Origin: Diphasiastrum complanatum
Taxonomy: Eukaryota; Streptophyta; Lycopodiopsida; Lycopodiales; Lycopodiaceae
Direction: 5' to 3'
Assembly (NCBI GenBank): GCA_029204225.1
Contig: CM055094.1
Location: forward strand, 63,668,483 to 63,732,482
DNA length: 64,000 bases
Shown here: piece by piece, positions 3,335 through 61,890 of the stretch
Layout of the letters: each line of letters begins with the position of its first letter
Position numbering within the stretch: the first letter of the stretch is position 1
Made by a program: the position numbers and the translations under genes
Notes under the pieces: generated by a model
Databases searched by the model: none
The model's input: only the letters and a program-made list of their open reading frames with translations
Told to the model about the DNA's origin: nothing

Positions 3335-6300
3335 ATGGCTACGACAATCCAGACCAGAGTAGCAATCAGTCTCGATGGCGCAAATTACAGAATCTGGAAA
3401 TTCAAAATCAAAACACTCCTGAAGGGCGAAGGCTTCTGGTCGGTGACCGAGCTCTCAGAGGTGCAGCCTCCAGAATGAGACCCGAGGAGAGCTGAATGGA
3501 TCAAAAAGGATGAGCGCATAATGGCGATCATCGTCTCGTCCATAAATGAAGATCTACTCATCCAGATTGATCACTGCGAAAGCAGCCATGTAGCATGGGA
3601 AAGATTAAAGCATAAGTATAAAGTGAGAACTGCAGCTTCAATCATGCACCTTTACAATCAGCTGCAATCAATATGGTGGGATGGCAACCAGTTGGATCAT
3701 CACGTTGAGAAGATTAGAATGATCTTTCGGTCAAACCGCCTGCATCAGGACAGGAGCACTAGGTCCCAGCACCAAAGAGTAGCTGATGTACTTCATGCAA
3801 TCTCTACCGACATCCTATCAACTGCTGAGAATGCTCATACTGAGGTCTACTAGATATGACATTTGACGAAGCAAATCAGTCTTGTCGCTGATGAGGACTG
3901 ATGAGAGACAAAGAGAGGGAAGCAGTGATCAAGAGAAGGCTCTCTTCACGGAAAGGCAAGAAGAAGAACAAAAGCAAGCCAAGATTCGAGAAGACAAAGT
4001 CCTCAAATCAAAATCTTCTTCCTACGATCACTACCCACAAACCAGGCCATACAGCCAACAAATGCTAGTTCAATCCAGCAATACCTTGCATGCATTGCAA
4101 GAGGAAAGGGCAGATTCAACCCAAAAAGAAAAAAACAAAGCTGAAAAAGCAAACGTTGCAGAATCATCTAAAGATGCAGAAAGAAGGTGACGAAGCTTTC
4201 ACGATACTCGACGAAGCTTCGACAAGCTACTCCGAACATGACTACGATGTGGTCATCGATTCAGGAACAACATCTCACATAACCTGCAACAAGAAGATCT
4301 TGATCAACTTTTGCGAACTCAAAAACGATAGAGTGATGATTCTAGGCGATGGAAGTAGACATGATGTCAAAGGCATTGGATCTCTACAGTACGAACACTG
4401 TCAGGCCAAGCAGAGCTGCCAAGAGCACTCTATGTGCCCTCACTCGGAAAAGATCTGCTATCTATCTCCAAGATGGCACATCTAGGCATTCGAGTTTTGT
4501 TCGACGGCAACACTTGTCGTATGATCGAGAAGACGACAAACAAGTTGCTGACGGTCGGATGCAGACAAGGAAATCTCTACCAGGCCAAAATAATCAGCAA
4601 CTCTGATAGCATATTAAATGCTTCAAAAAACGAAGATCAGCGCTGGCATAGGAGATTGTATCATCTGAACATGCGGACCCTGTACAACATGAGCACAAAG
4701 CACATTGTCACAGGTCTCAAAATATCAAGGCCCGAGGCTGAGTTCTGCGAAGCTTGTCAGAAAGGCAAGCAACATTGGAGTCCATTTACACACGAAGGAA
4801 GAAGGGCTAAGGAAGTTCTTGAGCTTCTCCACTCTGATGTGTGTGGACCAATGAAAATAGATTCGCTATCAGGTTCGAAATATCTTCTAATGTTCATAGA
4901 TGATTACAGTCGAATGACCACGATCTACTACTTGAAGAAGAAATCCTAAGTATTTGGTTCTTTCAAGAAGTTCGTGGCATTCACAGAGCGACACACCTCG
5001 AAGAAGATACAGATCCTTAGATCTGACAATGGAGGTGTATACAAAAGCACAAAATTCTCAAGATTCTGCGAAGAACAGGGGATAGAACACCATTTCACTC
5101 CTGCATACACACCAGAATACAACAGTGTGGCAAAAAGGAAAAACAGAACGCTAGTCGAAGGAGCCAGATGCATGATGGCACAGGCTCAATTGCCAGGCCA
5201 ATTCTGGGACGAAGCAATAGCTGTAGTAGTACATCTGCAGAACAGATAAAAAATGACAGCGTTGGAGAACGAAATATTGTACGAGATGTGGACAGGCAGA
5301 AAGTTTGATCTATCATACGCACGAGTGTTTGGATGTACAGCATACAAGCACATTCCAAAAGAAAAGAGAATCTAGCTCGACGTCAAATCCCAAACAATCA
5401 TGGTCAACTACTCGATCAGAATACATATGTACAGAGTCTACGATCCAACCTCGAAGAAGGTTGTTTCGAACAGAGATGTGAAGTTCGACGAGTCCATATT
5501 CCCTGAACTGAAAGACGAAAGAGGCCATGAGATCTTCACACTACTGCCTATTCAAGAGGGAGACCGAGGACAATCATCAAATCAGCATGCAGGACCCCAG
5601 ACTCCAAAGCAGTAGGAAGCATAGGACCGACCCCACGAACAAGAAATGTTCGAGCAGCGACGAAATGAACCTCGAAGGCCAACAAGACAAAGAAGACCTC
5701 CAGACCGCTATTCTGACAATCTTCAATGGAGCTAAGACACACAGTTCGAGTACTGCAGCTTCACAGAAGAGCCAGCTACATACCAAGAAGCTATCTAAAG
5801 TCTAGAGAGAGAATTTTGAAAACAGACAATGTCAGAAGAGATCGAGTCGATGAGGCAAAACGAGGCATGGACATTAGAGCCACTGCCAAAAAACAGAAAA
5901 GTAGTCGACTGCAAATGGGTGTACAAGAAGAAGCTGAAATCAGATGGCACCATTGGTCGCTACAAAGCAAGGATTTTCGCGAAGGGCTACACGCAGAGAT
6001 ATGGTATTGACTATTTCGACATATATTCGCCCATGGTCAAGATGACAAGCATAAGGCTGCTCCTTGCATACGCCACACAGTACAATCTGAAAATTCACCA
6101 GATTGACATGAAAACAGTCTTTCTCCACGGAGATCTAGAGGAGAAAATTTTCATAAAGCAACCTGAAGGCTATGAAGACCCCGACAATAGATAATATGTC
6201 TGTCGATTGCAGAAATGCATCTACAGTCTGAAACAGGCATCACGAGCCTGGTACAAAAAGCTTGATGGTCTTCTGAAGTCCCTAGACTTCGATCCTACTC

Positions 6301-9576: not shown

Positions 9577-10111
9577 AATCCCTCGACGAAAAATTCGCAC
9601 AACAATCACAGTTCCATGTTTCTGCAAAATATTGACATGCCAATTATGTGTAAGAAACAAAAAATCCATTCTAAAAACTAGGTGAAGATTTAGAGGACGT
9701 TTGTTGAAATTGGAATTTTACTTGGTGCTTTTAAACTTTTGTAAATATTCTATAGACAAAAATTTAGCCTATTTTAGTCTTATACATTTGAGCATCATAA
9801 GTTTTTGGCTTTGCCACTTAGTCGTAGGTCTTTCAACTTGAACAAAACATCTCTTGAGCTCGAATTTATCCTTGGTTGAGACTTCATCAAGTTTGATAAC
9901 AATATAAAATCCTGTCATTGAAAGTCAAGTTTTAAAACCCTAGAAACTCTATCATCTCTGCCTTCATCTCCAAAATACGACCGATAATTGACTTCAATTC
10001 TGTCACGCAACTATGTTGGAGGCATGCAGCAAAGGCGTAGGAAATCCCTCTCATCTATCTTCGAAGCTAGTTACTTGGGCGTTACGCGAGCGTCCATCTT
10101 CACCACTGTAT

Positions 10112-10118
10112 TATATAT
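10112..10118 (+). promoter_or_regulatory. Probable TATA box of germin-like gene 1
   Basis: TATATAT about 141 bp before the ATG, conserved at 37212-37218 and 50948-50954. Transcription would then start roughly 30 bp downstream, giving a 5' leader of about 110 bases. This is inferred from position and conservation only. Confidence 0.55.
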
Positions 10119-10258
10119 CTGTTGCGCAGATCTCGATCTCACATAGGCATCGCTCAACCTCTCAGTTCAGCGACATACGCATCTGTCTTGTTGGAATAGT
10201 TTCAGTCCATCTTACGTCGTATAAGCTGAGGTTTTCAACAAAGTTCATTTCAGACAAC

Positions 10259-10942
10259 ATGGAGTCCTCAACTTTCTTCAACATTTTTGCAGGGCTGCTG
10301 GTATTCCCGGCCTTGCTTCTGTTACAATTCGCGCCTCTCAATGTCAATGCCGCCGATGCGGATCCTTTACAGGACTTTTGTGTTGCTGATCTTACCAAGG
10401 ATCTATACCTGAACGGCTACCCTTGCAAAACACCAGCCGCTGTCACAACAGATGATTTCGTTTTTGATGGCCTCACAGCTCCTCCCCAGACTAACAACAG
10501 TGTCGGAGCCAGCGCTATTCTTGCTGACGTGGATACGTTTGCGGGCTTAAACTCTCTTGGGTTATCCTTTGCCAAGCTTGATTTTGCAAAGGGAGGAATT
10601 ATCCAACCTCACACCCACCCCCGTGCATCCGAGATCATTTATGTTGTAAAAGGAACTTTGTACGCTGGTTTTGTCACCGCTGACAACAAGCTATTTGCCA
10701 GGGTCATCAGCAAAGGTGAGGTCATGATTTTTCCAAGAGGACTCATTCACTTTCAGCTCAATGTAGGAGATGCACCCGCTCAAGCCGTGGTTGCTCTGAA
10801 CAGCCAGAGCCCTGGTTTCCAAACCATTTCGAGTGCCTTGTTTGGCTCAAACATCAAGGATGAAGTGCTACAGAAATCATTTTTGATCTTGGATCAGAAG
10901 ACAATAGACCGTCTGAAAGCAATTTTCTCGGGCTCCAAATAA
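10259..10942 (+). CDS. Germin-like protein 1, intact
   Basis: A 227-residue secreted cupin of the germin-like family; members act in the cell wall or apoplast as Mn-binding oxalate oxidases, superoxide dismutases or non-enzymatic proteins. Residues 1-31 form a hydrophobic signal peptide with probable cleavage after VNA. Cys41 and Cys56 match the conserved disulfide. Germin box 1 (about 111-132) has His118, His120 and Glu125. Box 2 (about 153-168, GEVMIFPRGLIHFQLN) has His164. All four metal ligands are therefore present. Asn79 lies in an NNS glycosylation site. Length is typical and there is no intron. I chose the ATG at 10259 because it starts the signal peptide; the in-frame upstream extension to 10013 has no family similarity and lies across the TATA box. 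Which activity it has cannot be read from sequence. Confidence 0.95.
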   Translation: MESSTFFNIFAGLLVFPALLLLQFAPLNVNAADADPLQDFCVADLTKDLYLNGYPCKTPAAVTTDDFVFDGLTAPPQTNNSVGASAILADVDTFAGLNSLGLSFAKLDFAKGGIIQPHTHPRASEIIYVVKGTLYAGFVTADNKLFARVISKGEVMIFPRGLIHFQLNVGDAPAQAVVALNSQSPGFQTISSALFGSNIKDEVLQKSFLILDQKTIDRLKAIFSGSK

Positions 10943-17107: not shown

Positions 17108-17967
17108 ATGTCATCCATGGGTGGATATTTGTTGGAATCAAGTGAGAGACTCACTTCCACTAATTATTCCATTTGGAAAGTGAGGATGGAGTCACTCCTA
17201 GTGATCCATGACCTCTTTTACATAGTTCTAGGAGTTGAGGAAGAGCCTCAAGCTCCCAAGAACAAACCAAATACAAGAAGAGAGCAAGATTAGCTCTACA
17301 TTGCATAAAGGTGAATGTATGCAATGACCTCTTGAAGGTGTCTTCTTTTGTCTCATCCAAAGAGGCTTGGGATTCATTAAAGAGTATCTATGAATCCAAT
17401 AACACTTCAAGAATCCTCATGCTAGGAAATCAAGTTTTCCAAAGCATGAAAGGAAGTGGAGGGAGTGGACAAGAGTATGTCCTTAGGATCAAATCTCTTA
17501 ACAAGGAATTAAGTGCAATAGTAGAGAAGATCCAAGATCAAGAGCTAGTACAAATCATATTGAATGGCCTAGGTGATGAGTTCACCAACTTGGTCCAATC
17601 ATTTGCTATTCAAGACACTCTTCCATCCATTGAAAAGTTGCATAAAGTTCTTGTGGCAGAGGAGAGTAGACTTCTACCCCTCAAGACAAGAATGGATGGC
17701 ATGTCACTTAATGGAGGAGAGGAGAAATCAAACTTTACATCCAACGGCAAGAAGAAACAACATCCATTCAAGAAGAATCAAGGCAAGGAGGATGATATGA
17801 AGAATGGAGGATCTACTTACAAAGGCAAGGTGAAGAACAAGGCAAAGCTCAAGTGTTTCTTTTGTGGGAAGAAAGGACACTTTTCCTCGGAATGCTACTT
17901 GAAGAAGAATCAACAAGCCAATGGAGATCAAGGGAACATTGCTCAAGAGAAAGAAGATGAGGATTGA
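17108..17967 (+). pseudogene. Copia-G gag with zinc knuckle
   Basis: Capsid/nucleocapsid part of the copia polyprotein. The frame opens at the ATG at 17108 (MSSMGGYLLESSERL, NYSIWKVRMESLL), shifts between about 17275 and 17300, and continues to 17967 with KEAWDSLKSIYESNN and the CCHC knuckle CFFCGKKGHFSSEC near 17852-17893. A TGA at 17965-17967 separates it from pol, which is in the same frame. Copia elements normally make one continuous gag-pol protein, so this stop is more likely a mutation than a regulated readthrough site. Confidence 0.92.
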
Positions 17968-17982
17968 TTCAACACATTCTTA

Positions 17983-20900
17983 ATGGTTGCATCTACACCA
18001 ACTTCAAGTCAAGACACGTGGTGGATAGATAGTGGGGCTAGTTCTCACATGTCTTTTAACAAGCATTATTTCTCCACTCTTATCTCTTGTAATGACTCTA
18101 AGAATTCAATATACATTGCTAGTGATCAAGAATTAAGGATATATGGCATAGGATCTATTCCTCTTTGCTTAGGCACATCTAAAAGGATAGATCTTGATAA
18201 TGTTTTGTATGTTCCTACCATTTCAAGAAACTTGCTTAGTGTAGGACAATTAATGGACAATGGACTAGATGTACATTTCAAGAATGGAGTTTGTTCCATC
18301 TTGAAAAATGAAAAGTGCATAGCTAGTGGCATTAAGCAAGGTATATTTTTCAAGCTGGATGCTAATGTTGCAAATGAAAGTTTGAACTTGGCTAGGGAGG
18401 AGCTATCTCAAGTGGAGCTTTGGCATAAGAGATTAGGCCATCCTAATCTTCAATCTATGGAGTCAATGACAAGCAAGAAACTAGCTCTCAACCTACCAAG
18501 AGCTTTCAAGAAGTGTGGAAAGATGTGTGAGGCATGTGGCCTTGCAAAGTCACACAAATCTTCTTACAAGAGATCTTCATCAAGATCTCCCTCTCCCTTG
18601 GATCTCATACATTCTGATGTACATAGTTTTTCACATGCAAGTAATGGAGGTGCCTTGATGTATGTAGCTTTTATAGATGATTGTACTAGATTCACATGGA
18701 TTGAGTTACTATCAAAGAAAAGTCTTGTTTATGAAGCTTTCATTAAGTTCAAGTCTCTAGTTGAGAAGCAACTTAGTACTTCCATCAAAGCACTAAGATG
18801 TGATAATGGAGGAGAGTACACCTCCAATAAAATGAAAGGCTTTTGTGAGATCAATGGCATTAAATTGCAATACACTTGTTCCTATGCCCCCCAACAAAAT
18901 GGGGTGGCCGAGAGGAAAAATAGGAGTCTATATGAGTGTGCAAAGTCTTTAAGACTTGATGCATCACTTCTCATCTCATTTCGGGGAGAAGCTATAACAT
19001 GTGCTAATTATTTGTGTAATAGACTTCCTAGTAGTGCTATTGATGGGATCTCACCTTATCAAGTCTTGTTTGGTAAGAAACCCAATTTAAAAGACTTTAA
19101 GATCTTTGGATGTATTTGTTATGTCCACATCCCTTTGGAGACAAGAAGGAAAGAAGATGCTACCTCCTTCAAAGGGATTTTTGTTGGCTATGGAGAAAAT
19201 AGCAAGGGCTATAGGATATATGATCCTATATCCAAGAAAGTAGAGGTAAGCAAGGATGTATTTTTTGATGAGTCACAATTTGGTAAGATCTTGTCTAATG
19301 GATCTAACCCATTGTGCATTGAAGATCTTGACAAACCTGAGGAGGATCTTGACAAACCCGAGGATGGAGACAAGGATCCTAGTCAAAGGGGGCCGAGAAG
19401 ATCATCAAGATGCAAGGCCGAGCCCTCAAAGCTCACCTATGTGGACAAGGGAAAGCAAAAGGAAGACTCTACATCTTTTAACTCCTAACCTTTCTTAGCT
19501 ACATTGCTTGAAGAAGCATATAGATCTAAAGGTTGGAGAGATGCAATGCAAGTAGAGTATGATGCATTAGAAGACAATCATACTTGGAATCTTGTAAATC
19601 TTCCAAGAGGGAAGAAACCACTTGCATGTAAGTGGATTTATAGAATAAAGTACAATCAAGATGGATCTATTAGTAAGTACAAGTCTAGGCTTGTTGCTAA
19701 GGGATTTTTTCAAATAGAAGTATTGGATTATGAAAAAACATTTGCACCTATAGCTAAGCTTGTAACTATTATATTAATCATTTGCATTGCTACTTTGTTC
19801 AAGTGGAATCTCTACCAAATGGACGTGACAAATGCTTTCTTGAATGGCTTCTTAGAAGAGGAAATATACATGATGCAATCCAAGGGCTTCATCAAGGTTG
19901 GTGAGGAGCAAAAAGTGTGCTACTTAAGGAAGAGCCTATATGGCTTGAAGCAAGCACCTAGAGCTTGATATTCTAGGTTGCATGATTTTCTCTATTCCCT
20001 TGGCTTTGTACTAAGTGCTTATGAACCTTCTTTATATTTCAAATGTAATGAAAGAAAGATTATCATTTTGGTGCTTTATGTTGATGATGTCATTATGACA
20101 AGAAATGATGATGAAGGCATAAGCAAAGTAAAAGTTGATTTATCTAGTGAGTTCAAGATGGTCCTAAAGTTTATACATGGGATAGAAGTGTCTAGAAGTA
20201 GCAATTGTACTTTCATAAGTCAATCTAAGTATGCTACTTCCATTCTTAAAAGTTTTGGTATGAAAGATTGTAAGGGGATTGACACCCCTAAGGAGCATGT
20301 TGTGAAAGCAACTAATGAAGGTGATGAAGCATCCTTTGAGGACATCACCCTCTTTAGGAAGCTTATAGGCTCTCTAATCTATTTAACCATCACTAGACCC
20401 GACTTAAATTTTTGTGTAAGCAAGTTGAGTCAAAGTATGCAAGCTCCTTTAGTTCATCATTGGAAAAGTGCCAAGAGAGTACTTAGATATGTTTCTAGTA
20501 CTAGATTTTTTGGCATACTTTATGAAGGATCTGACTTGCACTTGAGAGCCTACTCGGATTCAGATTTTGGAGGTGACAAGATGGATAGAAAGTTTATTAG
20601 TGCATTTGCAAGATTTCTTTGTGGAGGAGTAATATCTTGGCTTTCCAAAAAGCAAGATAATATCTCACTATCTTCTTGTGAAGCCGAGTACAAGGCATTG
20701 ACTTCAACAACCAAAGAGCTCATATGGCTAAGAAGACAAGCTCATGGAGCTACATGTGCTAGAGGCCGAGGAGATCCCTTACATATTTTGTGACAATCAA
20801 GCTTCTCAACAAATTGCTTCAAATCATATCTTCCATGCTAGAACAAAGCATATTGAGATAGCTCACCACTTTGTGAGGGAGAAGGTACAATCCAAGGAGG

Positions 20901-32439: not shown

Positions 32440-32451
32440 TGGTATCAGAGC
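32440..32451 (+). other. Copia-E primer-binding site
   Basis: TGGTATCAGAGC, complementary to the 3' end of initiator tRNA-Met, directly after the LTR. The 579 bp up to the gag ATG are an untranslated leader. Confidence 0.93.
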
Positions 32452-34796: not shown

Positions 34797-37362
34797 TTCT
34801 TTTTCTTATTGCGTTCAGTATATGTCAGTATGTATTCCTCTTTGTAATACTTTGTAGCTGATAATTGTCTGATATTTCAATGCTTTATGTTTGACTACGT
34901 AATCACTTAGTTGCTAGCAATTTCAAAGTTAGTTGCTAAAGGTTGAACGTGATTTCTATCACTACCTGTTTGTTCAATATTGATGGGCATAGTCATGCAC
35001 AGAAAAAGAAGGTTCATTCTGTTGTGCTCGATGAAGTCGTCTATTTACTTCGACTATTTTGAATTGCTTCCTATCATCTCATGACCTTTTTTCAACACTG
35101 CACCTTCAGCTATTCGACACGCAGCAGAACATAATCATCAAAGTAATTAAGAACAATTAAAGCCAAAAGGTAAACAATCAATGTGCAAACAATCAGTACA
35201 CAATTATAGCAAAAGCTCGATTGAGGCATCATCGTCAAATTCACTCTCATATATTCACTTCACAGGTATCCACACCAAGAACAGGACCCGTGCATGCCAA
35301 GAACCAAAAACTTACATCTTTCATTCCCTATTTTATCACGTGTCCTATAGAGCAAGAACTAGACAAAACTACTTTCATGTTGTTGTGACAATTAAATAGA
35401 TTCTGAAATTGAACCAACATTTCACTAATAACAGATTTCACTACGTGATCCTTTTCTGGCTTGGTGGACCCATTGTTAGCATTGTGCAGCTGCTTATTTA
35501 AGAGTAGCATTCAGAGGTGGTGGATATTTCAAGCCGATGAAGTAGTAAAGTTTGTCATTCACGAAGCCAATTAGCACCGATGAAGTAGTAAAGTTTGTTA
35601 TTCACGAAGCCAATAAGCATCGCATAAAACTCCAGAACTAATCATCACATGAAAGTCCACATCAATTGGGAAAAAACTTGTGTAAGAACATACAAAGTTA
35701 TCCATATGATCTTATGTTCACCAACCTCGACCTCCAAACTTAGATAGGAATTTGGGTTTTTAGAAAGACCCTAGCATAGCTTTGCTTCCTCGTCTCTTTA
35801 TTATTTAAGTAGCATAGAATAGCTAGAGACTTTAGGCATAAAACAAGGCAAAAGCTCCCCTACACCACCGTGCCTTTGGTAATGATAATACCCTACGAGA
35901 TCACTTTGAAGATGATCACAATGATGCAAAAGGAGTCTTTAAGAAGTTCTGATAACATTGTAGCAACATCTTGCCTATATGACACATCTACGCAACCAAA
36001 TCCGACATCAAAACAATGTCCCAAATCGACTGAAAGTGCCTCGAGTTTCTCAGTGACCCATCTCGTGATCATGTAGAACCATATGTCAGGATCGATTATG
36101 CCAATCCCAATCTGAGAGTATCGATGAAGTTAACAATATGACGACACATATAGGCACATGAGCCAAACTCCCAAAGTATGTTGAGATATAACAGCTGGCC
36201 TTGTCATAGATAGTACATTGAATTTGTAGGATGGATTTAGGAGGGCCTCTCGTGACCCCCTTCTAGAATCCCTCCAAATCTTACTAGCATCCCATAGAGG
36301 TTTGGATCCTATTAAGACTAGAGTGGTTTCTAGTTTAGGGTCTCCCAAGGTCCGGTTAGATCCTACTCAAGATTTAAATCAGCATCACTAGCATTTCTTT
36401 CCAGATGAAGAAGCTGAGTAGTGAACTTGAGTAGCCATTCATCTTACTAGCATATATTACCTGACATTTCTTTCTAGACCAAGAAATCTGAGAAGTCAAT
36501 CAATAGCAGTTATTCATCTTCGAGCGGTTATACCTCTAAGAGCCTGAAAAATTCTCATTGACCCGAGAGTATGGGGTGACTATGACGGCCCTCGGGATTG
36601 GATGCGGTGTTATCCTAACCACTTGCGTAAGGGCGGTGTGGTCCCTTCCCCTTGTCGGGGATCTTCCGACGGGACCAATCCCTCAACGAAAAATTCGCCC
36701 AACAATCACAGTTCCATGTTTCTGCAAAATACTGACATGCCAATTATGTGTAAAAAAGAAAAAATCCATTCTAAAAACTAGGTGAAGATTTAGAGGACGT
36801 TTGTTGAAATTGGAATTTTACTTGGTGCTTTTGAACTTTTGTAAATATTCTATAGACAAAAATTCAGCCTATTTTAGTGTTATACATTTGAGCATCATAA
36901 GTTTTTGGCTTTGCCACTTAGTCGTAGGTCTTTCAACTTGAACAAAACATCTTTTGAGCTCGAATTTATCCTTGGTTGAGACTTCATCAAGTTTGATAAC
37001 AATATAAAATCCTGTCACTGAAAATCAAGTTTTAAAACCCTAGAAACTCTACCATCTCTGCCTTCATCTCCAAAATACGACCGATAATTGACTTCAATTC
37101 TGTCACGCAACTATGTTGGAGGCATGCAGCAAAGGCGTAGGAAATTCCTCTCATCTATCTTCGAAGCTAGTTACTTGGGCGTTACGCGAGCGTCCATCTT
37201 CACCACTGTATTATATATCTGTTGCGCAGATCTCGATCTCACATAGGCATCGCTCAATCTCTCAGTTCAGCGACATACGCATCTGTCTTGTTGCAATAGT
37301 TTCAGTCCATCTTACGTCGTATATATAAGCTGAGGTTTTCAACAACGTTCATTTCAGACAAC
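34797..37362 (+). promoter_or_regulatory. Germin unit 3 upstream region
   Basis: Same block as at 7753-10258 and 48584-51094, with two 43-bp minisatellite units (35536-35621), the hairpin (36640-36676), and TATATAT at 37212-37218. It lies before a coding region that is now broken. A small insertion gives tatatata near 37321. Confidence 0.6.
35536..35621 (+). repeat. 43-bp minisatellite, two copies
   Basis: Two 43-bp units at 35536 and 35579, homologous to the three-copy array at 8415. Confidence 0.95.
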
Positions 37363-38105
37363 ATGGAGTCCTCTACTTTCTTCAACATTTTTGCAGGGCT
37401 GCTGGTATTCCCGGCCTTGCTTCTGGTACAATTCGCGCCTCTCAATGTCAATGCCGCCGATGCGGATCCTTTACAGGACTTTTGTGTTGCTGATCTTACC
37501 AAGGATTTATACCTGAACGGCTACCCTTGCAAAACACCAGCCGCTGTCACAACAGATGATTTCGTTTTTGATGGCCTCACAGCTCCTCCCCAGACTAACA
37601 ACAGTGTCGGAGCCAGCGCTACTCTTGCTGACGTGGATACGTTTGCGGGCTTAAACTCTCTTGGGTTATCCTTTGCCAAGCTTGCTTTTGCAAAGGGAGG
37701 AATTATCCAACCTCACACCCACCCCCGTGCATCCGAGATCATTTATGTTGTAAAAGGAACTTTGTACGCTGGTTTTGTCACCGCTGACAACAAGCTATTT
37801 GCCAAGGTCATCAGCAAAGGTGAGGTCATGATTTTTCCTAGATGACTCATTCACTTTCAGCTCAATGTAGGAGATGCACCCGCTCAAGCCGTGGTTGCTC
37901 TGAACAGCCAGAGCCCTGGTTTCCAAACCATTTCGAGTGCAATGGCGCAGGCAGCTCTAGGCCATCGGCCTTCTTGATCACCGATTGACCCCGCCCAGGT
38001 AAGTATGGCTCAAACATCAAGGATGAAGTGCTACAGAAATCATTTTTGATCTTGGATCAGAAGACAATAGACCGTCTGAAAGCAATTTTCTCGGGCTCCA
38101 AATAA
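37363..38105 (+). pseudogene. Germin-like protein 2, disrupted
   Basis: Homologous along its whole length to the genes at 10259 and 51095. The frame is intact for 160 codons, with signal peptide, Cys41, Cys56 and metal ligands His118, His120 and Glu125. Gly161 of box 2 is then a TGA (37843-37845), directly after the residues IFPR, so the fourth ligand His164 and the C-terminal third are lost. Further on, 66 bp of unrelated sequence (37941-38006) replace 7 bp and shift the frame. The rest up to the TAA at 38103-38105 is well conserved. A truncated protein would lack one metal ligand and the last beta strands and is unlikely to fold normally. Few other changes have accumulated, so the loss is recent. 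Confidence 0.93.
37941..38006 (+). other. 66-bp foreign insert in the germin pseudogene
   Basis: Replaces cttgttt of the other copies. It is GC-rich compared with its surroundings, is not seen elsewhere in the window, and ends with CAGGTAAGTAT, a perfect match to a plant 5' splice-site consensus. Origin unknown. Confidence 0.85.
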
Positions 38106-48583: not shown

Positions 48584-51094
48584 TCTTATTGCGTTCAGTA
48601 TATGTCAGTATGTATTCCTCTTTGTAATACTTTGTAGCTGATAATTGTCTAATATTTCAATGCTTTATGTTTGACTACGTAATCACTTAGTTGCTAGCAA
48701 TTTCAAAGCTAGTTGCTAAAGGGTGAACGTGATTTCTATCACTACCTTTTTGTTCAATATTGATAGGCATAGTCATGCACAGGAAAAGAAGGTTCATTCC
48801 GCTGTGCTCGATGAAGTCATCTATTTACTTCGACTATTTTGAATTGCTTCCTATCATCTCATGACCGCCTTTCAACACTACACCTTCAACTATTCCACAC
48901 GCAGCAAAACATAATCATCAAAGTAATTAAGAACAATTAAAGCCAAAAGGTAAACAATCAATGTGCAAACAATCAGTACACAATTATAGCAGAAGCTCGA
49001 GTGAGGCATCATCGTCAAATTCACTCTCATATATTCACTTCACAGGTATCCACACCAAGAACAGGATCCGTGCATGCCAAGAACCAAAAACTTACATCTT
49101 TCATTCCCTATTTTATCACGTGTCCTATAGAGCAAGAACTAGACAAAACTACTTTCATGTTGTTCTGACAATTAAATAGATTCTGAAATTGAACCAACAT
49201 TTCACTAATAACAGATTTCACTACGTGATCCTTTTTTGGCTTGGTGGACCCATTGTTAGCATTGTGCAGCTGCTTATTTAAGAGCAGCATTCAGAGGTGG
49301 TGGATATTTCAAGCCGATGAATTAGTAAAGTTTGTTATTCACGAAGCCAATAAGCACCGCATAAAACTCCAAATCTAATCATCACATGAAAGTCCACATC
49401 AATTGGGAAAAACTTGTGTAAGAACATATAGAGTTATCCATATGATCTTCTGTTCACCAACCTCGACCTCCAAACTTAGATAGAATTTTGGGTTTTTAGA
49501 AAGACCCTAGCATAGCTTTGCTTCCTCGTCTCTTTATCATTTAAGTAGCATAGAATAGCTAGAGACTTTAGGCATAAAACAAGGCAAAAGCTCCCCTACA
49601 CCACCGTGCCTTTGGTAATGATAATACCCTACGAGATCACTTTCAAGATGATCATAATGATGCAAAAGGAGTCTTTAAGAAGTTTTGATAACATTGTAGC
49701 AACATCTTGCCTATATGACACATCTACGCAACCAAATCCGACATCAAAACAATGTTCCAAATCGATTAAAAGTGCCTCGAGTTTCTCAGTAACCCATCTC
49801 GTGATCATGTAGAACCATATGTTAGGATCGATTATGCCAATCCCAGTCTGAGAGTATCGATGAAGTTAACAATATGACGACACATATAGGCACAGGAGCC
49901 AAACTCCCAAAGTATGTTGAGATATAACAGTAGGGCTTGTCACAGATAGTAGATTGAATTTGTAGGATGGATTTAGGAGGGCCTCTCATGACCCCCTTCT
50001 AGAATCCCTCCGAATCTTACTAGCATCCCATAGAGGTTTGGATCCTATTAAGACTAGAGTGGTTTCTAGTTTAGGGTCTCCCAAGGTCCGGTTAGAGCCT
50101 ACTCAAGATTTAGATCAGCATCACTAGCATTTCTTTCCAGGTGAAGAAGCTGAGTAGTGAACTTGAGTAGCCATTCATCTCACTAGCATACATTACCTGA
50201 CATTTCTTTGTAGACCAAGAAATCTGAGAAGTCAATCAGTAGCAGTTATTCATCTTCTAGCGGTTGTACCTCTAAGAGCCTGAAAAATTCTCATTGACCC
50301 GAGAGTATGGGGTGACTATGACGGCCCTCGGGATTGGATGCGGCGTTACCCTAACCACTTGCGTAAGGGCGGTGTGGTCCCATCCCCTTGTCGGGGATCT
50401 TCCGACGGGACCAATCCCTCAACGAAAAATTCGCCCAACAATCACAGTTCCATGTTTTTGCAAAATATTGACATGCCAATTATGTGTAAGAAACAAAAAA
50501 TCCATTCTAAAAACTAGGTGAAGATTTAGAGGACGTTTGTTGAAATTAGAATTTTACTTGGTGCTTTTAAACTTTTGTAAATATTCTATAGACAAAAATT
50601 CAGCCTATTTTAGTCTTATACATTTGAGCATCATAAGTTTTTGGCTTTGCCACTTAGTCGTAGGTCTTTCAACTTGAACAAAACATCTTTTGAGCTCGAA
50701 TTTATCCTTGGTTGAGACTTCATCAAGTTTGATAACAATATAAAATCCTGTCATTGAAAGTCAAGTTTTAAAACCTTAGAAACTCTACCATCTCTGACTT
50801 CATCTCCAAAATACGACCGATAATTGATTTCAATTCTGTCACGCAACTACGTTGGAGGCATGCAGCAAAGGCGTAGGAAATTCCTCTCATCTATCTTCGA
50901 AGCTAGTTACTTGGGCGTTACGGGAGCGTCCATCTTCACCACTGTATTATATATCTGTTGCGCAGATCTCGATCTCACATAGGCATCGCTCAACCTCTCA
51001 GTTCAGCGACATACGCATCTGTCTTGTTGGAATAGTTTCAGTCCATCTTACGTCGTATAAGCTGAGATTTTCAACAAAGTTCATTTCAGACAAC
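48584..51094 (+). promoter_or_regulatory. Germin unit 4 upstream region
   Basis: Homologous to 7753-10258 and 34797-37362. It has a single 43-bp minisatellite unit (49316-49358), the hairpin (50376-50412, with one changed base inside), and TATATAT at 50948-50954. This block controls the second intact gene, if it is expressed. Confidence 0.6.
49316..49358 (+). repeat. 43-bp minisatellite unit, single copy
   Basis: One unit only, homologous to the three-copy array at 8415. Confidence 0.85.
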
Positions 51095-51778
51095 ATGGAG
51101 TCCTCTACTTTCTTCAACATTTTTGCAGGGCTGCTGGTATTCCCGGCCTTGCTTCTGTTACAATTCGCGCCTCTCAATGTCAATGCCGCCGATGCGGATC
51201 CTTTACAGGACTTTTGTGTTGCTGATCTTACCAAGGATCTATACCTGAGCGGCTACCCTTGCAAAACACCAGCCGCTGTCACAACAGATGATTTCGTTTT
51301 TGATGGCCTCACAGCTCCTGCCCAGACTAACAACAGTGTCGGAGCCAGCGCTATTCTTGCTGACGTGGATACGTTTGCGGGCTTAAACTCTCTTGGGTTA
51401 TCCTTTGCCAAGCTTGATTTTGCAAAGGGAGGAATTATCCAACCTCACACCCACCCCCGTGCATCCGAGATCATTTATGTTGTAAAAGGAGCTTTGTACG
51501 CTGGTTTTGTCACCGCTGACAACAAGCTATTTTCCAAGGTCATCAGCAAAGGTGAGGTCATGATTTTTCCAAGAGGACTCATTCACTTTCAGCTCAATGT
51601 AGGAGATGCACCCGCTCAAGCCGTGGTTGCTCTGAATAGCCAGAGCCCTGGTTTCCAAACCATTTCGAGTGCCTTGTTTGGCTCAAACATCAAGGATGAA
51701 GTGCTACAGAAATCATTTTTGATCTTGGATCAGAAGACAATAGACCGGCTAAAAGCAATTTTCTCGGGCTCCACATAA
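51095..51778 (+). CDS. Germin-like protein 3, intact
   Basis: Secreted cupin of the germin-like family, 227 residues, near-identical to the protein at 10259. I count six differences: Asn52Ser, Pro76Ala, Thr133Ala, Ala147Ser, Arg148Lys and Lys227Thr. The signal peptide (about 1-31), Cys41/Cys56, ligands His118, His120, Glu125 and His164, and the Asn79 glycosylation site are all kept. Thr133Ala lies just after box 1, so a mild functional change is possible but not shown. There is no intron. The start was chosen as for gene 1; the longer in-frame extension upstream to 50852 crosses the TATA box and has no family similarity. The copy looks functional and lies about 41 kb from gene 1. Confidence 0.95.
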   Translation: MESSTFFNIFAGLLVFPALLLLQFAPLNVNAADADPLQDFCVADLTKDLYLSGYPCKTPAAVTTDDFVFDGLTAPAQTNNSVGASAILADVDTFAGLNSLGLSFAKLDFAKGGIIQPHTHPRASEIIYVVKGALYAGFVTADNKLFSKVISKGEVMIFPRGLIHFQLNVGDAPAQAVVALNSQSPGFQTISSALFGSNIKDEVLQKSFLILDQKTIDRLKAIFSGST

Positions 51779-55640: not shown

Positions 55641-56570
55641 GGCAGGCAGCCGGCCCCCCTTTTTACATTTGTCAATGGCATGATGTCTCTCCAAGATTTT
55701 TGTGAATAAAATTTACCCCCCGTTCCATTAACTTAGTGAGTTTTAGCCCAAACATTTTTTCAAATTACCCACTTGTGCAAAACTTTTTCTCTTTAAGTTG
55801 GTTGGCCATTTTGGCCTCTCCTGGTTTTTAATTCTGCCATTCTTATATGTCTTGGTGATTTTTTTCCTGTGATTGTGGTCTTGATGGCATAAATTGTTAT
55901 GTACCCATATTTTTAAAACCCATTGTGCCCATTCACTAATGTAGGCCATTTTGTCGATGTTTTTTAATCGGTAATTCAACTGACTCAATTTTGATTCTTC
56001 ATGTTCCAAGTGACAGACGTGATCAATCTTTGAAAGAAATCGACCATTCTTAAAAAACAAAGAAGTTTTTGCATTAGTAAAATGTTTTTGAATACATCAA
56101 AATTTTTGCTCGGCATTTCTGGCATTTTTACATTCGGCCCAACTTTAAGGCCGTAAAAGTTTTGACTACCCACATTTAGGCTGGCTGGGACCTATTTCTA
56201 CATCGACCGGCATTTTTCTTTTGTCTTACAAAAAATTAGTCTATGTCAACTATTTTTGACAGTTCTTAGGACCGTTTATAAAGATCTACCATCTATTAAT
56301 AATTAACGTGTCTAGCCACATTAAGGGTGGGCTAGAACTCCTTTTTGATCCACTTTTTGCATCAACTTTTGTAGAATTTGTAGTAGTTTGGATTTCGTCA
56401 AATACTCTTCAGCCACTTCCTGTTCAATATTAGTCCGATTTTTGCTGTCAAAAATTCGGCTAACAAGGGTTTTGCCAATATTTAACATTTCAATATCTTT
56501 CTGCACATTGCAATAAAATTTTCACCAAATTTCTTCTACTGTTGCACATTACAATTACCAAAGCACACTG
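55641..56570. other. Unassigned DNA, weak minus-strand frames
   Basis: Minus-strand frames at 55743-56060 (105 codons) and 56321-56506 (61 codons) are rich in Lys and Asn and do not resemble a family I know. They could be relics of one decayed minus-strand coding region. There is no supporting motif. Confidence 0.3.
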
Positions 56571-57565
56571 CACGTCGAAGAGCTGTTTAAAAGCTTCTTA
56601 TAGCAACAAAGTACTAGAGTGGTAGAAAGTACCAACAAGTAGAACCAAAGAACCAAAGCATCTTATAGTACCAAAGTACAAAAACATCTAATAGTACCAA
56701 ATCATCTTATAGTACAAAAGCACTAAACATGCAGAAAGTACAAGAACCTTAATTGGTAGTCTAGAGGATCAAAATTGTTACAGGATAGGTTCAAATAGTA
56801 CCAATCTTTGGTACTCTAAAGTTTCAGGAACACGTAAACATTATAGAAATAGTACAAACCTTGTAAAATTGGTAGTAACTAAAGCTTAGATTCCACCAAT
56901 TCGTAAACAACACTAAAATAGTACCAAAAAGACCACAAAGGATTGTATGCGAGCTGTGAACACAAATAAATATAAAGAAAAAAAGACCTGATTTTTGTAG
57001 TTTTATGCGTAAAATATGGTCACAAGAAGTCTAAATAGTACTTATTTGGTAGATTTTAAAATAAAACTAAGACACTTAGTATAAAAGACCTAATTTGGTA
57101 GTCAATAGAATTAGAATTGGTTCAAGATAAGTCACCTTGTAGTACGAATCTTTCACATTTAAGAGTTTTACCAATACAAAAATAGTACCAAAACCGTACA
57201 AAATTTGTAAAATTAGTATCTGACACTGGTGCAGCTCAACATAATGTTGGTTCACTCAAAACTTCTTAAAGATTTTTTTGCATAAAGTCATTGTTAACAT
57301 CTTCAAAGTGAACTTGAAGAGTATTCTCATTACCATTGATCTATATTCAAGAAGTCTTATCGTGTTACAGGTAGAAAGTACTTGCAGGTAGTACCAAAGC
57401 ATCATATATAGGTAGTACCAAAGTATCATACTCAAGTAGTACCAGGAAGGTAGAAAGTACCTATAGGTAGTACCAAAGAATCATATGCAGGTAGTACCAA
57501 AGTTTCATACACAAGTAGTACCAAGAAGGTAGAAAGTACTTGTAGGTAGTACTAAAGCATCATTA
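56571..57565 (+). repeat. AGTACCAAA-rich minisatellite region
   Basis: The word AGTACCAAA or close variants occurs well over ten times. The most regular part is 57371-57565, where a unit of about 80 bp starting GTAGAAAGTAC repeats 2.4 times. The stretch 56882-57003 recurs with changes at 61271-61385 on the other side of the LTR-gag array. Confidence 0.8.
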
Positions 57566-58328
57566 TGTAGGAAAAATAGTAATTATTCTTCCATAGAGAA
57601 CACGATTAAAGTTCAAATAAATCAAACTAATATCAGTATTTTCAATCGGGTCTGTATCTGATCTATGTACTAATAGAACAGTATTGCTTTGATTGAATTT
57701 GCATGTGAAAATAATATGCGGAAGTAAGAGAACTTAAGACAATTTTAGACAATAAGAAACTGTTGATCAAAAAATGAATTTTATAATTCTGAGTCTAAAT
57801 CAATATACATCTCTTGTTGTCTTATCTCACTGTTGTGTCTCTGATTGAATGAGATGGTTACAACAAGTAGTGCACATGTATTTATATTGCTACAAGATAG
57901 GTCTTATGGCCTTTTATTTACAGGTCTTTTGGCCTTTCAATTCTGTAACCATAGATCTAACCGTTTATGACGGTGATATTCAAATAGATGCTTCATTTCT
58001 AAGGTCAAATAATTTTTGTTCGCGACAGTCCATCTCTTCTTCTCATATTTGTGTTTCACGAATTGTTCTTGACAATTGTCTCTTCGTGACATTTTTGTGT
58101 TTCACGAATTGTTCGCGATAGGTGACAATTTTTGAGCTTGCAGTAGAATCCTGAACATTTCGCGAATTGTTCGTGAAAAATTTCGCGACATCTGAAGTTT
58201 GAACTAAGAAACAAGATTTTTCATTTCTAGAATCTTTTGAGTTCGCGTTTATTTTTTTCTCATCCTTTGTCAAGTAAATTGCATGCTTTGATAGTAGAAT
58301 CAAAATCTGTCTAATCATTTGTTCTACA
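57566..58328 (-). repeat. TR-GAG LTR a
   Basis: A 763-bp LTR with TGTAGAAC...CCTACA ends on the minus strand. By eye it differs from LTR b by only a few per cent. It has a TATAAATA box on the minus strand near 57873 and CGAATTGTTCG-type repeats in the part upstream of it. Confidence 0.9.
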
Positions 58329-58343
58329 GCTCCCTCTCAAAAT
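58329..58343 (-). other. TR-GAG unit 1 polypurine tract
   Basis: ATTTTGAGAGGGAGC on the minus strand directly before LTR a; the same sequence lies before LTR b at 59878-59892. Confidence 0.85.
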
Positions 58344-58460
58344 GGACAATTGGATTAAACCCAATCTTCTCCGCTTCTTCTCGAACAAAGCCTTTTGAAG
58401 TGTCATTGTCACATCTTTCGCAAATAAGGTTCGAGTTGTGTGGAATGACCTGGGTAGGGC

Positions 58461-58937
58461 TCAAAGAAAATAACTAAGCTGTTTTTCCTTAGAAATTGTA
58501 TTTTTTGCACTAGAATTTTGCAAGGAAATAAACAGATCTTTAATCTTTCGCATGAATGTGTTCAAGTCTTTGTCGTCCCACTGTAGGTAAGTTAATTGGT
58601 CTTCCAAGAATATGATCTGATTATGAAATGGAGTCTCATTCTTGGTTTGCAATTCTTCCCATAAATCCTTTGCATTTGAAATTGATGTAAGATCTGGCAT
58701 TATATTGTCATGCACTGAAGATGCAATACTTGCTATAGCTTTGTCATTTTTCAAACTCCATTCTTGAAGTTCTTTGCCAAGAGTAGCTATTGGCCTCTTC
58801 TCTATTAGTTCTATCCATTGCCATAGACTTTCGCCCTTCAATAAGAGTGAAGTCTTGAATTTTCAAATAAAGTAGTTTGAACCTTTTGGATCCAAGATCG
58901 TAGTGATCTTGGCTTGAATATTGATGACCGACGACAT
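58461..58937 (-). pseudogene. TR-GAG unit 1 gag, one stop
   Basis: A copia-type gag of about 158 codons. The ATG lies at 58937 (MSSVINIQAKITTILD, then NYFI). Codon 25 is TGA at 58863-58865, where the sister copy has TGG. It continues with LWQWIELIEKRP, SIASSVHDNIM, AKDLWEELQTKNE and LNTFMRKIKDLF to a TGA at 58461. These fit the N-terminal half of a UBN2-like copia gag. No zinc knuckle is found. In a non-autonomous element, gag would package the RNA into virus-like particles using pol from a helper. Confidence 0.85.
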
Positions 58938-59098
58938 CTTCTAATTCTGAATAACCTCCAAGATAACGGCTTCTTGATGGATGTATGAAGAATGCTGAGG
59001 GGTATGAAGATACCACTGTATCGACTTTGATTCATTCTGATATCACTGTATCAGCTTTGAACTTGTATATTCTGACATCATTGTATCTAATTTTGTAT

Positions 59099-59110
59099 GC
59101 TCTGATACCA
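59099..59110 (-). other. TR-GAG unit 1 primer-binding site
   Basis: TGGTATCAGAGC on the minus strand, one base inside LTR b, a perfect match to the initiator tRNA-Met type PBS. Confidence 0.92.
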
Positions 59111-59111
59111 A

Positions 59112-59877
59112 TGTAGGAAAAATAGTAATTATTCTTCCACAGAGAACACGATTAAAGTTCAAATAGATCAAACTAATATCAGTATTTTCAATCGGGTCTG
59201 TATCTTATCTATGTACTGATAGAACAGTATTGCTCTGATTGAATTTGCATGTGAAAGTAATATGCGGAAGTAAGAGACAACTTAAGACAATTTTAGACAA
59301 TAAGAAACTATTGATCAAAAAACAAATTTTATATTTTGAGTCTGAATCAATATACATCTCTTGTCGTCTTATCTCATTGTTGTGTCTCTGATTGAATGAG
59401 ACGGTTGCAACGAGTAGTGCTGACGTATTTATATTGCTATAGGACAAGTCTTTTGGCCTTTTATTTATAGGTCTTTTGGCCTTTCAATTCTGTAACCGTA
59501 GATCTAACCGTTTATGACGGTTGATATTCAACTAGATGCTTCATTTCCAAGGTCAAATAATTTTTGTTCGCGACAGTCTATTTTTTCTTCTCAGATTTGT
59601 GTTTCGCGAATTGTTCGTGACAATTGTCTCTTCGTGACATTTTCGTGTTTCGCGAATTGTTCGCCACAGATAACAATTTCTAAGCTTGAAGTAGAATCCA
59701 GAACATTTTGCGAATTGTTTGTGAAAATTTTCGTGACATCTGAGGTTTGAATAGGAAACAAGATTTTTCATTTCTAGAATCTTTCGAGTTCGCGTTTATT
59801 TTTTTTTCTCGTCCTTTGTCAAGTAAATTGTGTGCTTTGTTAGTAGAATCAAGATCTGTCTGATCATTTGTTCTACA
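59112..59877 (-). repeat. TR-GAG LTR b, shared by both units
   Basis: A 766-bp LTR flanked on one side by a PBS (59099-59110) and on the other by a PPT (59878-59892), so it acts as 5' LTR for unit 1 and 3' LTR for unit 2. TATAAATA on the minus strand lies at 59426-59433. Confidence 0.9.
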
Positions 59878-60009
59878 GCTCCCTCTCAAAATGGGTAGTT
59901 GGATTAACCCCAATCTTCTTCGCTGCTTCTCGAACAAAGCCTTTTGAAGTGTCATTGTCGCATCTTTTGCAAATAAGGTTCGAGTTGTGTGGAATGACTT
60001 GGGTAGGGC

Positions 60010-60486
60010 TCAAAGAAAATAACTAAGCTGTTTTTCGTTAGAAATTGTATTTTCTGCACTAGAATTTTGCAAGGAAATAAACAGATCTTTAAACTTTCGC
60101 TCGAATGTGTTCAGGTCTTTGCCGTCCCACTGTAGGTAAGTTAATTGGTCTTCCAAGAATATTATCTGATTATGAAATGGAGTCTCATTCTTGGTTTGTA
60201 ATTATTCCCATAAATCCTTTGCATTCAAAATTGATGTAAGATCTAGCATTATATTGTCATGCACTGAAGACGCAATACTTGCTATAGCTTTGTCATTTTT
60301 CAAACTCCATTCTCGAAATTCTTTGCCAAGAGTAAGTATTGGCTTCTTCTCTATTGGTTCTACCCATTGCCATAGACGTTTGCCCATCAATAAGAGTAAA
60401 GTCTTCAATTTCCAAATAAAGTAATTTGAACCTTCTAGATCCAAGATCGTAGTGATCTTAGCTTGAATATTGATGACCGACAACAT
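60010..60486 (-). pseudogene. TR-GAG unit 2 gag, one stop
   Basis: Sister of the gag at 58461-58937. The ATG at 60486 opens 94 codons (MLSVINIQAKITTIL, NYFIWKLKT, LWQWVEPIEKKP, AKDLWE), then a TAA at 60202-60204 where unit 1 has GAA. Coding similarity continues in the same frame to about 60010. The stop in unit 1 and the stop in unit 2 are different, so each copy decayed separately after the array formed, or only one was active. Confidence 0.85.
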
Positions 60487-60653
60487 TTTCTAATTCTGAA
60501 TAACCTCCAGATAACAGCTTGTTGATGGATGTATGAAGAATGTTGAGAGGGGTATGAAGATACCACTATATCGACTTTGATTCGTTCTGATATCACTGTA
60601 TCAGCTTTGAACCTGTATATTTTGACATCATTGTATCAGATTTAATTCTGTAT

Positions 60654-60665
60654 GCTCTGATACCA
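60654..60665 (-). other. TR-GAG unit 2 primer-binding site
   Basis: TGGTATCAGAGC on the minus strand, next to LTR c. Confidence 0.92.
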
Positions 60666-60666
60666 A

Positions 60667-61271
60667 TGTAGGAAAACTAGTAATTATTCTTCCACAGATA
60701 ACACAATTAAAGTTTAAATAAATCAAACTAATATCAGTGTCTTCAATCGGGTCTGTATCTGTTCTATGTACTAATAGAACAGTATTGCTCTGATTGAATT
60801 TGCATGCGAAAATAATATGCAAAAGTAAGAGACAACTTAAGACAATTTTAGACAATAAGAAACTATTGATCAAAAAACAAATTTTATATTCTGAGTCTGA
60901 ATCAATATACATCTCTTGCTGTATTATCTCGCTATTGTGTCTCTGATTGAATGAGATGGTTACAACGAGTAGTGCTGATGAATTTATATTGCTATAGGAC
61001 AGGCCTTTTGGCCTTTTATTTACAGGTCTTTTGGCCTTTCAATTATGTAACAGTAGATCTAACTGTTTACGACGGTTGATATTCAAATAGACACTTCGTT
61101 TTCAAGGTCGAATAATTTTTGTTCACGAATATTTCGTCACAGTCTATCTCTTCTTCTCAGCTTTCTGTTTCGCGAATTGTTCATCACAAATGACAATTTC
61201 TGAGCTTGAAATAGAATCCAGAACATTTCGCGAATTGTTCGTGAAAATTTTTGCGACATCTGAGGTTTGAA
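60667..61271 (-). repeat. TR-GAG LTR c, truncated
   Basis: Homologous to LTR a and LTR b from their PBS side, but ends at about 61271, where sequence related to 56882-57003 begins. About 160 bp of the outer LTR end are missing, so the target-site duplication cannot be checked. Confidence 0.85.
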
Positions 61272-61385
61272 GCTTAAATCCCACCAATTGATAAACAGCA
61301 CTAAAATAATACTAAAAAGACCACAAATGATTGTATGCGAGGTGCGAACACAAATAAATATAAAGAAAAAAATACCTAATTCAAT
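61272..61385 (+). repeat. Direct repeat flanking the TR-GAG array
   Basis: Diverged copy of 56882-57003 (for example, aaagaccacaaa and ttgtatgcgag are shared), in the same orientation, on the opposite side of the array. Confidence 0.8.
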
Positions 61386-61890
61386 AGTTTTTGTTTTAAA
61401 GCTATCTTCATAAGCTTTACTTCCGGTGCCACTGGCGCCAGCATTGTCCCCAGCGCCAGCAGCACCCCTGCTGCTCCCGGCGCCGGTGCCACTCCCGGCG
61501 CCACTATGACCAGAATCTAGCTAGCGCCAAGTTTCTATGGCTGAAAATCTTTGATCAGTTCTAGCAAAGTCCAGAGAGCTCAGATCGATGTGCAATCATC
61601 TCACACGATCTAGGCATGATCAAAGGAAGCATGGGGATCAATAAAATCTAGAGAGAGAAAATGACTTTCTAGGAAGAGAAAATCCTAGAGAGAGAAAGAA
61701 CGTGCTTTACCAGCTTGGGTAGAGTGCTTGGTATGAGGGGGGGTGCCGAATTCCACCAATACTATAGGGGAGTGTGAGTTGCGACTCAGGGCGAGCTCCA
61801 ACCAAGTCTCAGCCTCCCTTGCTAGAATGTTGTCATGGCTCTCGCCTTGGCATGCTAGCACCCCGGAGACTACGGTCGGTCACACACTTG
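61386..61890. other. Unassigned DNA with GGCGCC-rich patch
   Basis: Contains a GC-rich patch at 61430-61510 with repeated GGCGCC and GCGCCAG words, very different from its surroundings. It may be the outer part of LTR-M, but the boundary could not be fixed. No coding frame. Confidence 0.35.

Follow-up and report, generated by a model that had tools for sequence, protein, structure and literature searches.

The window, by which we mean the whole 64,000-nucleotide stretch of Diphasiastrum complanatum DNA analyzed here (contig C3:63668483-63732482 of a 1.74-Gb assembly), contains at 57566-61271, on the minus strand, an array in which LTR a, internal region 1, LTR b, internal region 2 and LTR c alternate. 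LTR a, the 5' LTR (60667-61271), has lost about 126 bp from its 5' end and is joined directly to a host repeat near 61270. LTR b (59112-59877) serves both units and carries some derived sites in common with LTR a and others with LTR c. LTR c (57566-58328), which forms the 3' LTR, is bounded by TG...CA ends and shares 92.5% identity with LTR b. Internal regions 1 (59878-60666) and 2 (58329-59111) are 93.6% (rounded, 94%) identical, and the LTRs 89-93% among themselves. Repeats within the array reach 88-94% identity over lengths from hundreds of bases to 2 kb, a similarity far above chance. An earlier note on this DNA had described three LTRs and two internal regions alternating on the minus strand, with a single LTR serving two units in tandem, and this anatomy is borne out by the boundaries and identities of the parts. 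Its three LTRs and the two internal regions between them, all of one family, give the array the L3I2 form of tandem LTR-retrotransposons.

Each internal region begins with the PBS TGGTATCAGAGC (60654-60665 in unit 1 and 59099-59110 in unit 2, both on the minus strand), which we take to be of the initiator-Met tRNA type, and terminates with the PPT GAGAGGGAGC; this PPT-like sequence stands directly before LTRs c and b. As would be expected of a defective Ty1/Copia element, the array has a PBS, a PPT and LTRs that start with TG and finish with CA. Between PBS and PPT lie a truncated copia gag and the last codons of pol. The gag of internal region 2 is matched by Pfam Retrotran_gag_2 at 2.8e-10 and that of internal region 1 at 4.6e-6 (26.6 bits, slightly below the curated 27), in agreement with the PBS, copia-like gag and PPT previously read in each internal region. 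A Pfam search of the window pieces beyond the junction between gag and pol gave no match; the weak names MvcA_ins, BREX_BrxC_helical and DUF3199 obtained in window pieces are unrelated and were taken as chance. The two gag copies had been said to carry different stops, which holds for one private stop in each but not for a further one that is common to both (58461-58463 in unit 2, 60010-60012 in unit 1, minus strand). The open gag ORF as sole coding part that defines TR-GAG elements is therefore lacking, as stops occur in both units and gag is shortened at the junction. Because both gag frames contain stops, a function of the array is not likely.

Insertion site

To the left of the array, 56882-57565 (no strand assigned) belongs to a dispersed AGTACCAAAG-type host repeat, the presumed insertion target of the element. 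This repeat (56500-57565) is AGTACCAAAG-rich and includes 24/79-bp tandem units, with non-array paralogues, about 85-91% alike, at 35 of the 40 places scored among 584 candidates. Its 112-bp segment at 56882-56993 recurs on the other side of the array at 61270-61381 (89%). In a paralogous 200-bp stretch (L076) the host repeat runs on beyond the insertion point; when this stretch was compared with the right flank of the array, no match was obtained. From the order of the repeats we infer that the right junction would be explained by a deletion that removed the 5' end of LTR a together with roughly 200 bp of host repeat. Because LTR a is truncated, the right-hand TSD is lost.

The gag/pol junction and pol-bearing relatives

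Comparison with relatives assigns the last 60 bp upstream of the PPT in the internal regions to the end of pol and not to gag. The internal regions thus hold more than PBS, gag and PPT, beside which nothing else had been seen before: the last codons of pol are retained at their 3' end. At the junction, which is identical in both units (59938-59945 in unit 1, 58389-58396 in unit 2, minus strand), the array links CACTTCAAAAGGC to TTTGTTCGAG with preservation of the reading frame. The parental sequences have a 2-bp microhomology, GC, in common at the break, situated within the near-match AAGGC/AAAGC.

Among 2665 candidate places in the assembly, 40 were scored: 11 match through the junction, all of them array units, and 29 match on the gag side only, with a similarity that stops at 58390 (26 places) or 58392 (3 places). 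Past the gag break, relative L029 encodes Pol_BBD, gag_pre-integrase, SH3_retrovirus and RVT_2 along with a sub-threshold match to the integrase core (Pfam), while L020 and L025 encode Pol_BBD. Along the frame order of L029, Pol_BBD, gag_pre-integrase and the sub-threshold integrase core come before RVT_2, which agrees with the Copia order of integrase before RT. On the other side of the break, 58256-58394 or more, including the PPT and the LTR start, is matched in all six loci L070-L075, which were selected by a pol-end pattern; pol end, PPT and LTR start are also matched in L007. RVT_2 lies upstream of the pol-end tail in four of these six loci (L070, L074, L075 and, weakly, L072), and a single open frame of at least 100 residues spans the tail in three (L070, L072 and L073). 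By its position and by RNase H-like motifs in the frames that follow RVT_2 in relatives, the tail may represent RNase H; searches of the pol-end frames for this assignment in Pfam (pieces of L007, L070, L072 and L075), NCBIfam (three) and PDB sequences (one) returned no match. Locus L007 additionally carries, at 3950-4404, part of another member of the family (pol end, PPT and LTR), inverted and about 1.2 kb from the LTR of the first element.

The distance between intact gag and pol-end sites on the same strand is 3148-3577 bp in five of six pairs, chosen by eye within 10 kb among the first 100 exact places for each site, and 8459 bp in one, perhaps owing to a nested insertion. Given this spacing in the intact relatives, about 3.1-3.6 kb is missing from each internal region. 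Both internal regions are internal-deletion derivatives of an abundant pol-bearing Copia family. The earlier note had itself named relatives with pol at the gag-PPT position as evidence against its gag-only reading, and such relatives are present.

Distribution of the junction in the genome

A 27-bp junction pattern, allowing up to three mismatches, occurs at 11 places in the 1.74-Gb assembly (8 forward, 3 reverse), all of them inside array copies, and at none in a control with the reversed pattern. The same type of test locates the intact gag-side site at 1327 places and the intact pol-end site at 1358. Neither this search nor the scored places yielded a single dispersed unit with the junction. 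Since a gag-only family spreading as such would leave the junction elsewhere, no dispersed gag-only family appears to be present at the sensitivity used, and this candidate was rejected on the contrast between 11 of 11 junction sites within arrays and the 1327 and 1358 intact-site controls. Of the forms that the earlier note had advised looking for, array copies and pol-bearing relatives were found in the assembly, but at this sensitivity no junction-bearing solo units.

The proposed membership in the gag-only TR-GAG class is not supported, given the confinement of the junction to array copies and the existence of pol-bearing relatives. A true TR-GAG family, i.e., a gag-only element that is mobile on borrowed enzymes and forms arrays, would account for LTRs that enclose a PBS, a gag-like frame and a PPT, and PMC8704663 reports that a TR-GAG has transposed in an Arabidopsis ddm1 mutant. 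Yet such a family would be expected neither to keep its junction within array copies nor to carry a shortened gag that is interrupted by stops in each unit, including a common one, and we regard this explanation as very improbable.

Divergence of the LTRs and internal regions

All parts of the array belong to one lineage according to trees with 18 relatives, in which internal regions 1 and 2 form a clade (support 99.7/100) and LTRs a, b and c another (90.2/97); the grouping of LTRs b and c within the latter reaches 80.2/84 only. The 18 relatives include four near-identical pairs (L042/L043, L044/L045, L047/L048 and L052/L054), which may be uncollapsed haplotypes or recent duplications. The trees omit L008, L021, L024, L026, L027, L028 and L029 (duplicates or fragments) as well as L070-L075, which were obtained later. 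Independent insertions of two elements were rejected on the common junction, the clade supports and the host repeat that resumes to the right.

The K2P divergence is 0.120 between LTRs a and c, 0.110 between a and b and 0.080 between b and c, compared to 0.068 between the two internal regions. Tested on raw counts against the internal divergence, a-c is larger (p=0.003), a-b is larger (p=0.016) and b-c is no different (p=0.42). Derived sites, polarized with the relatives, are shared by b and c in nine cases, by a and b in five and by a and c in none (0/14). Sites gapped in any array LTR, covered by fewer than four relatives or with less than 70% agreement (12 variable sites) are skipped in this polarization. 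A smaller first tree (7 LTR relatives, 8 gag relatives) gave an unchanged grouping with counts of 10, 5 and 0, respectively. Seven of the nine changes shared by b and c are C-to-T or G-to-A, and such changes can recur. The contrast between five sites for a-b and none for a-c has p=0.06, or 0.125 when the adjacent sites 456 and 457 are treated as one event. Along the LTR, 2 ab sites are followed by 6 bc, 3 ab and 3 bc sites, so that four runs are formed (p=0.038 by permutation).

If both LTRs of a single inserted element recombine, the middle LTR is predicted to be a mosaic of sites shared with either neighbor. A single crossover predicts only one switch in LTR b, so that gene conversion must be added to explain four runs. 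That the patches common to LTR b and LTR a, and to LTR b and LTR c, record LTR-LTR recombination after insertion is in our estimation an evenly balanced proposition. Alternatively, a dimer of the form LTR-int-LTR-int-LTR may have integrated whole, generated by template switching or from a transcript that was concatenated or had read through, after which its parts decayed equally. PMC11899658 proposes this route for tandem LTR elements and PMC7215508 for Cassandra, and the presence of all array parts in one clade agrees with it. Equal decay is nevertheless at odds with an a-c divergence that exceeds the internal one, and a star phylogeny would not give derived sites shared by b-c and a-b with none for a-c. 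We therefore hold integration of a dimer to be unlikely, and consider it probable that the tandem was doubled after insertion rather than inserted as a multimer.

Array copies and the germin-like gene block

The assembly contains five full copies of the array, of which three lie on C3 at distances of about 42 kb and one each on C24 and C213. A sixth copy at C3:69.71 Mb (L006) matches over 2.25 kb and is followed by N where the second unit is expected. In three of the four full copies other than that of the window, identity extends through the 1.5-kb flanks on both sides, whereas the similarity of the C213 copy stops at 61507 on the right. Compared to the window copy, the C24 copy shows no differences in the array (0/3706) or the flanks (0/3000), and the two other C3 copies show 18/3706 and 15/3000, and 21/3706 and 16/3000, respectively. 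Counts for pairs with L006, the left part of which is N, are meaningless, as are flank counts with L005, whose right flank is unrelated past 61507.

A germin-like (cupin) gene frame at 50828-51778 (plus strand), 5.8 kb from the array, recurs beside the other array copies, the germin-like stretch deviating by no more than about 12 bp from the expected offset in all four other full copies. Over about 2 kb this stretch differs from the window at 27, 35 and 28 positions in three copies and at 0 in the C24 copy, and thus diverges more between copies than the array does, C24 excepted. The equal divergence of array and flanks, in combination with the constant offset of the germin-like gene, suggests that segmental duplication carried the array along as a passenger and that it was copied without transposing. 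Spreading of the array as an element, as had been envisaged, is not what these copies look like: they share their flanks and a germin-like gene. Given the higher divergence of the germin-like stretch and the end of similarity at 61507 in C213, the gene blocks appear to have uneven histories, and the duplications are not uniform.

The window itself includes three germin-like (cupin) frames (9992-10942, 37300-37845 and 50828-51778), situated in duplicated stretches that are about 90-98% alike, and repeats of the germin-like gene blocks occur within it. The germin-like cluster extends past the window along with the array copies.

One might also ask whether a single unit was falsely duplicated during assembly. 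Some relatives are found in near-identical pairs at two places, which makes uncollapsed haplotypes possible, and there are zero substitutions between the window and C24 arrays. Divergence, however, amounts to 6-8% between the two units and to 11% between the outer LTRs, and the structure is repeated at five places in four distinct sequences that are up to 0.67% apart, three of these places being on one contig. An artefact of this kind is hardly credible.

Discussion

In this study, we propose that the array is a decayed internal-deletion relic of a pol-bearing Copia element, which was doubled in place and subsequently copied in segmental duplications; we assign this reading a probability of about 0.75. 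The history includes a deletion of about 3.1-3.6 kb, judging from relatives, that fused the gag frame to the last pol codons and left LTRs, PBS and PPT in place, as can be read directly from the junction; it may have occurred during reverse transcription or afterwards in genomic DNA. This deletion is older than the doubling because the junction is present in both units. Judging from the order of the flanks, the element would have been inserted once into a AGTACCAAAG-type host repeat. Unequal LTR-LTR recombination between sister chromatids or homologues probably doubled the unit in place, giving rise to the mosaic middle LTR, a step for which the divergence data argue moderately. LTR a would have lost its 5' end in a further deletion, which also took some 200 bp of host repeat. 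The finished array would finally have been copied, again without transposition, in segmental duplications of the germin-like block; here the arrangement of the copies is observed, and the mechanism is the part that we deduce.

The sharing of one LTR by two units had been called unusual, but such tandems are reported to be frequent in plants (PMC11899658 and PMC4717578). The former counts 28 clear cases for a single rice genome and 266 for a rice pangenome; according to the latter, 35 of 43 genomes contain tandem TRIMs, with the L3I2 form in 63 of 93 tandem TRIM arrays in maize. Cassandra arrays are known as well, and a figure of at least 4600 such structures is cited for BARE1 in barley in PMC7215508. 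The tandem LTR elements of rice and other plants (Morales-Diaz et al. 2025, PMC11899658) likewise consist of two internal regions and three LTRs with the middle LTR in common, and in the TLI1 case internal regions that are 94% and LTRs that are 85-89% identical come near the values of the present array. In the same article, 89% of the 66 LTR-related rice candidates are Gypsy, whereas the present array is Copia, and all 28 curated cases encode conserved retrotransposon domains, whereas the present unit has lost most of pol and is truncated at one end. The article leaves undecided whether shared-LTR tandems arise by recombination or by multimer insertion.

TRIMs form dispersed families and are not known to carry gag. 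The present unit differs from them in that it is found at one duplicated locus type only and has kept part of gag. In PMC4717578 and PMC7215508, tandem TRIMs and Cassandra arrays are likewise short, non-autonomous LTR-int-LTR-int-LTR structures, and the latter source describes Cassandra's group as dispersed families without gag. TR-GAG elements, as described in PMC8704663, resemble our units in that LTRs, a PBS and a PPT enclose a gag-like frame, whereas the pol enzymes are missing. The present array deviates from this type by its lack of an open gag, the absence of dispersed copies among our search results and a simple deletion scar at which the end of pol follows. The original description of TR-GAG elements is reportedly that of Chaparro et al. 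from 2015. A literature search on TR-GAG in combination with tandem arrays yielded one paper, which deals with centromeric elements of Coffea.

The array looks like an ordinary relic rather than a mobile element of a new type. It illustrates how a gag-only array, however striking, can go back to one deletion relic amplified by local recombination and by the segmental duplication of a gene cluster, so that copy number alone should not count as proof of transposition. The wider use of the array is only as one case for the formation of shared-LTR tandems. If the mosaic of LTR b does reflect recombination after insertion, old tandems can separate recombination from multimer insertion.

Elsewhere in the window, a Copia element at 17239-20793 can be read as four abutting stop-to-stop frames, the first two of which contain the Pfam gag, zinc knuckle and integrase core; RT was assigned by eye in the remaining frames. 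Two more PBS-like TGGTATCAGAGC sites, at 32440 and 62624 on the plus strand, probably belong to other LTR elements.
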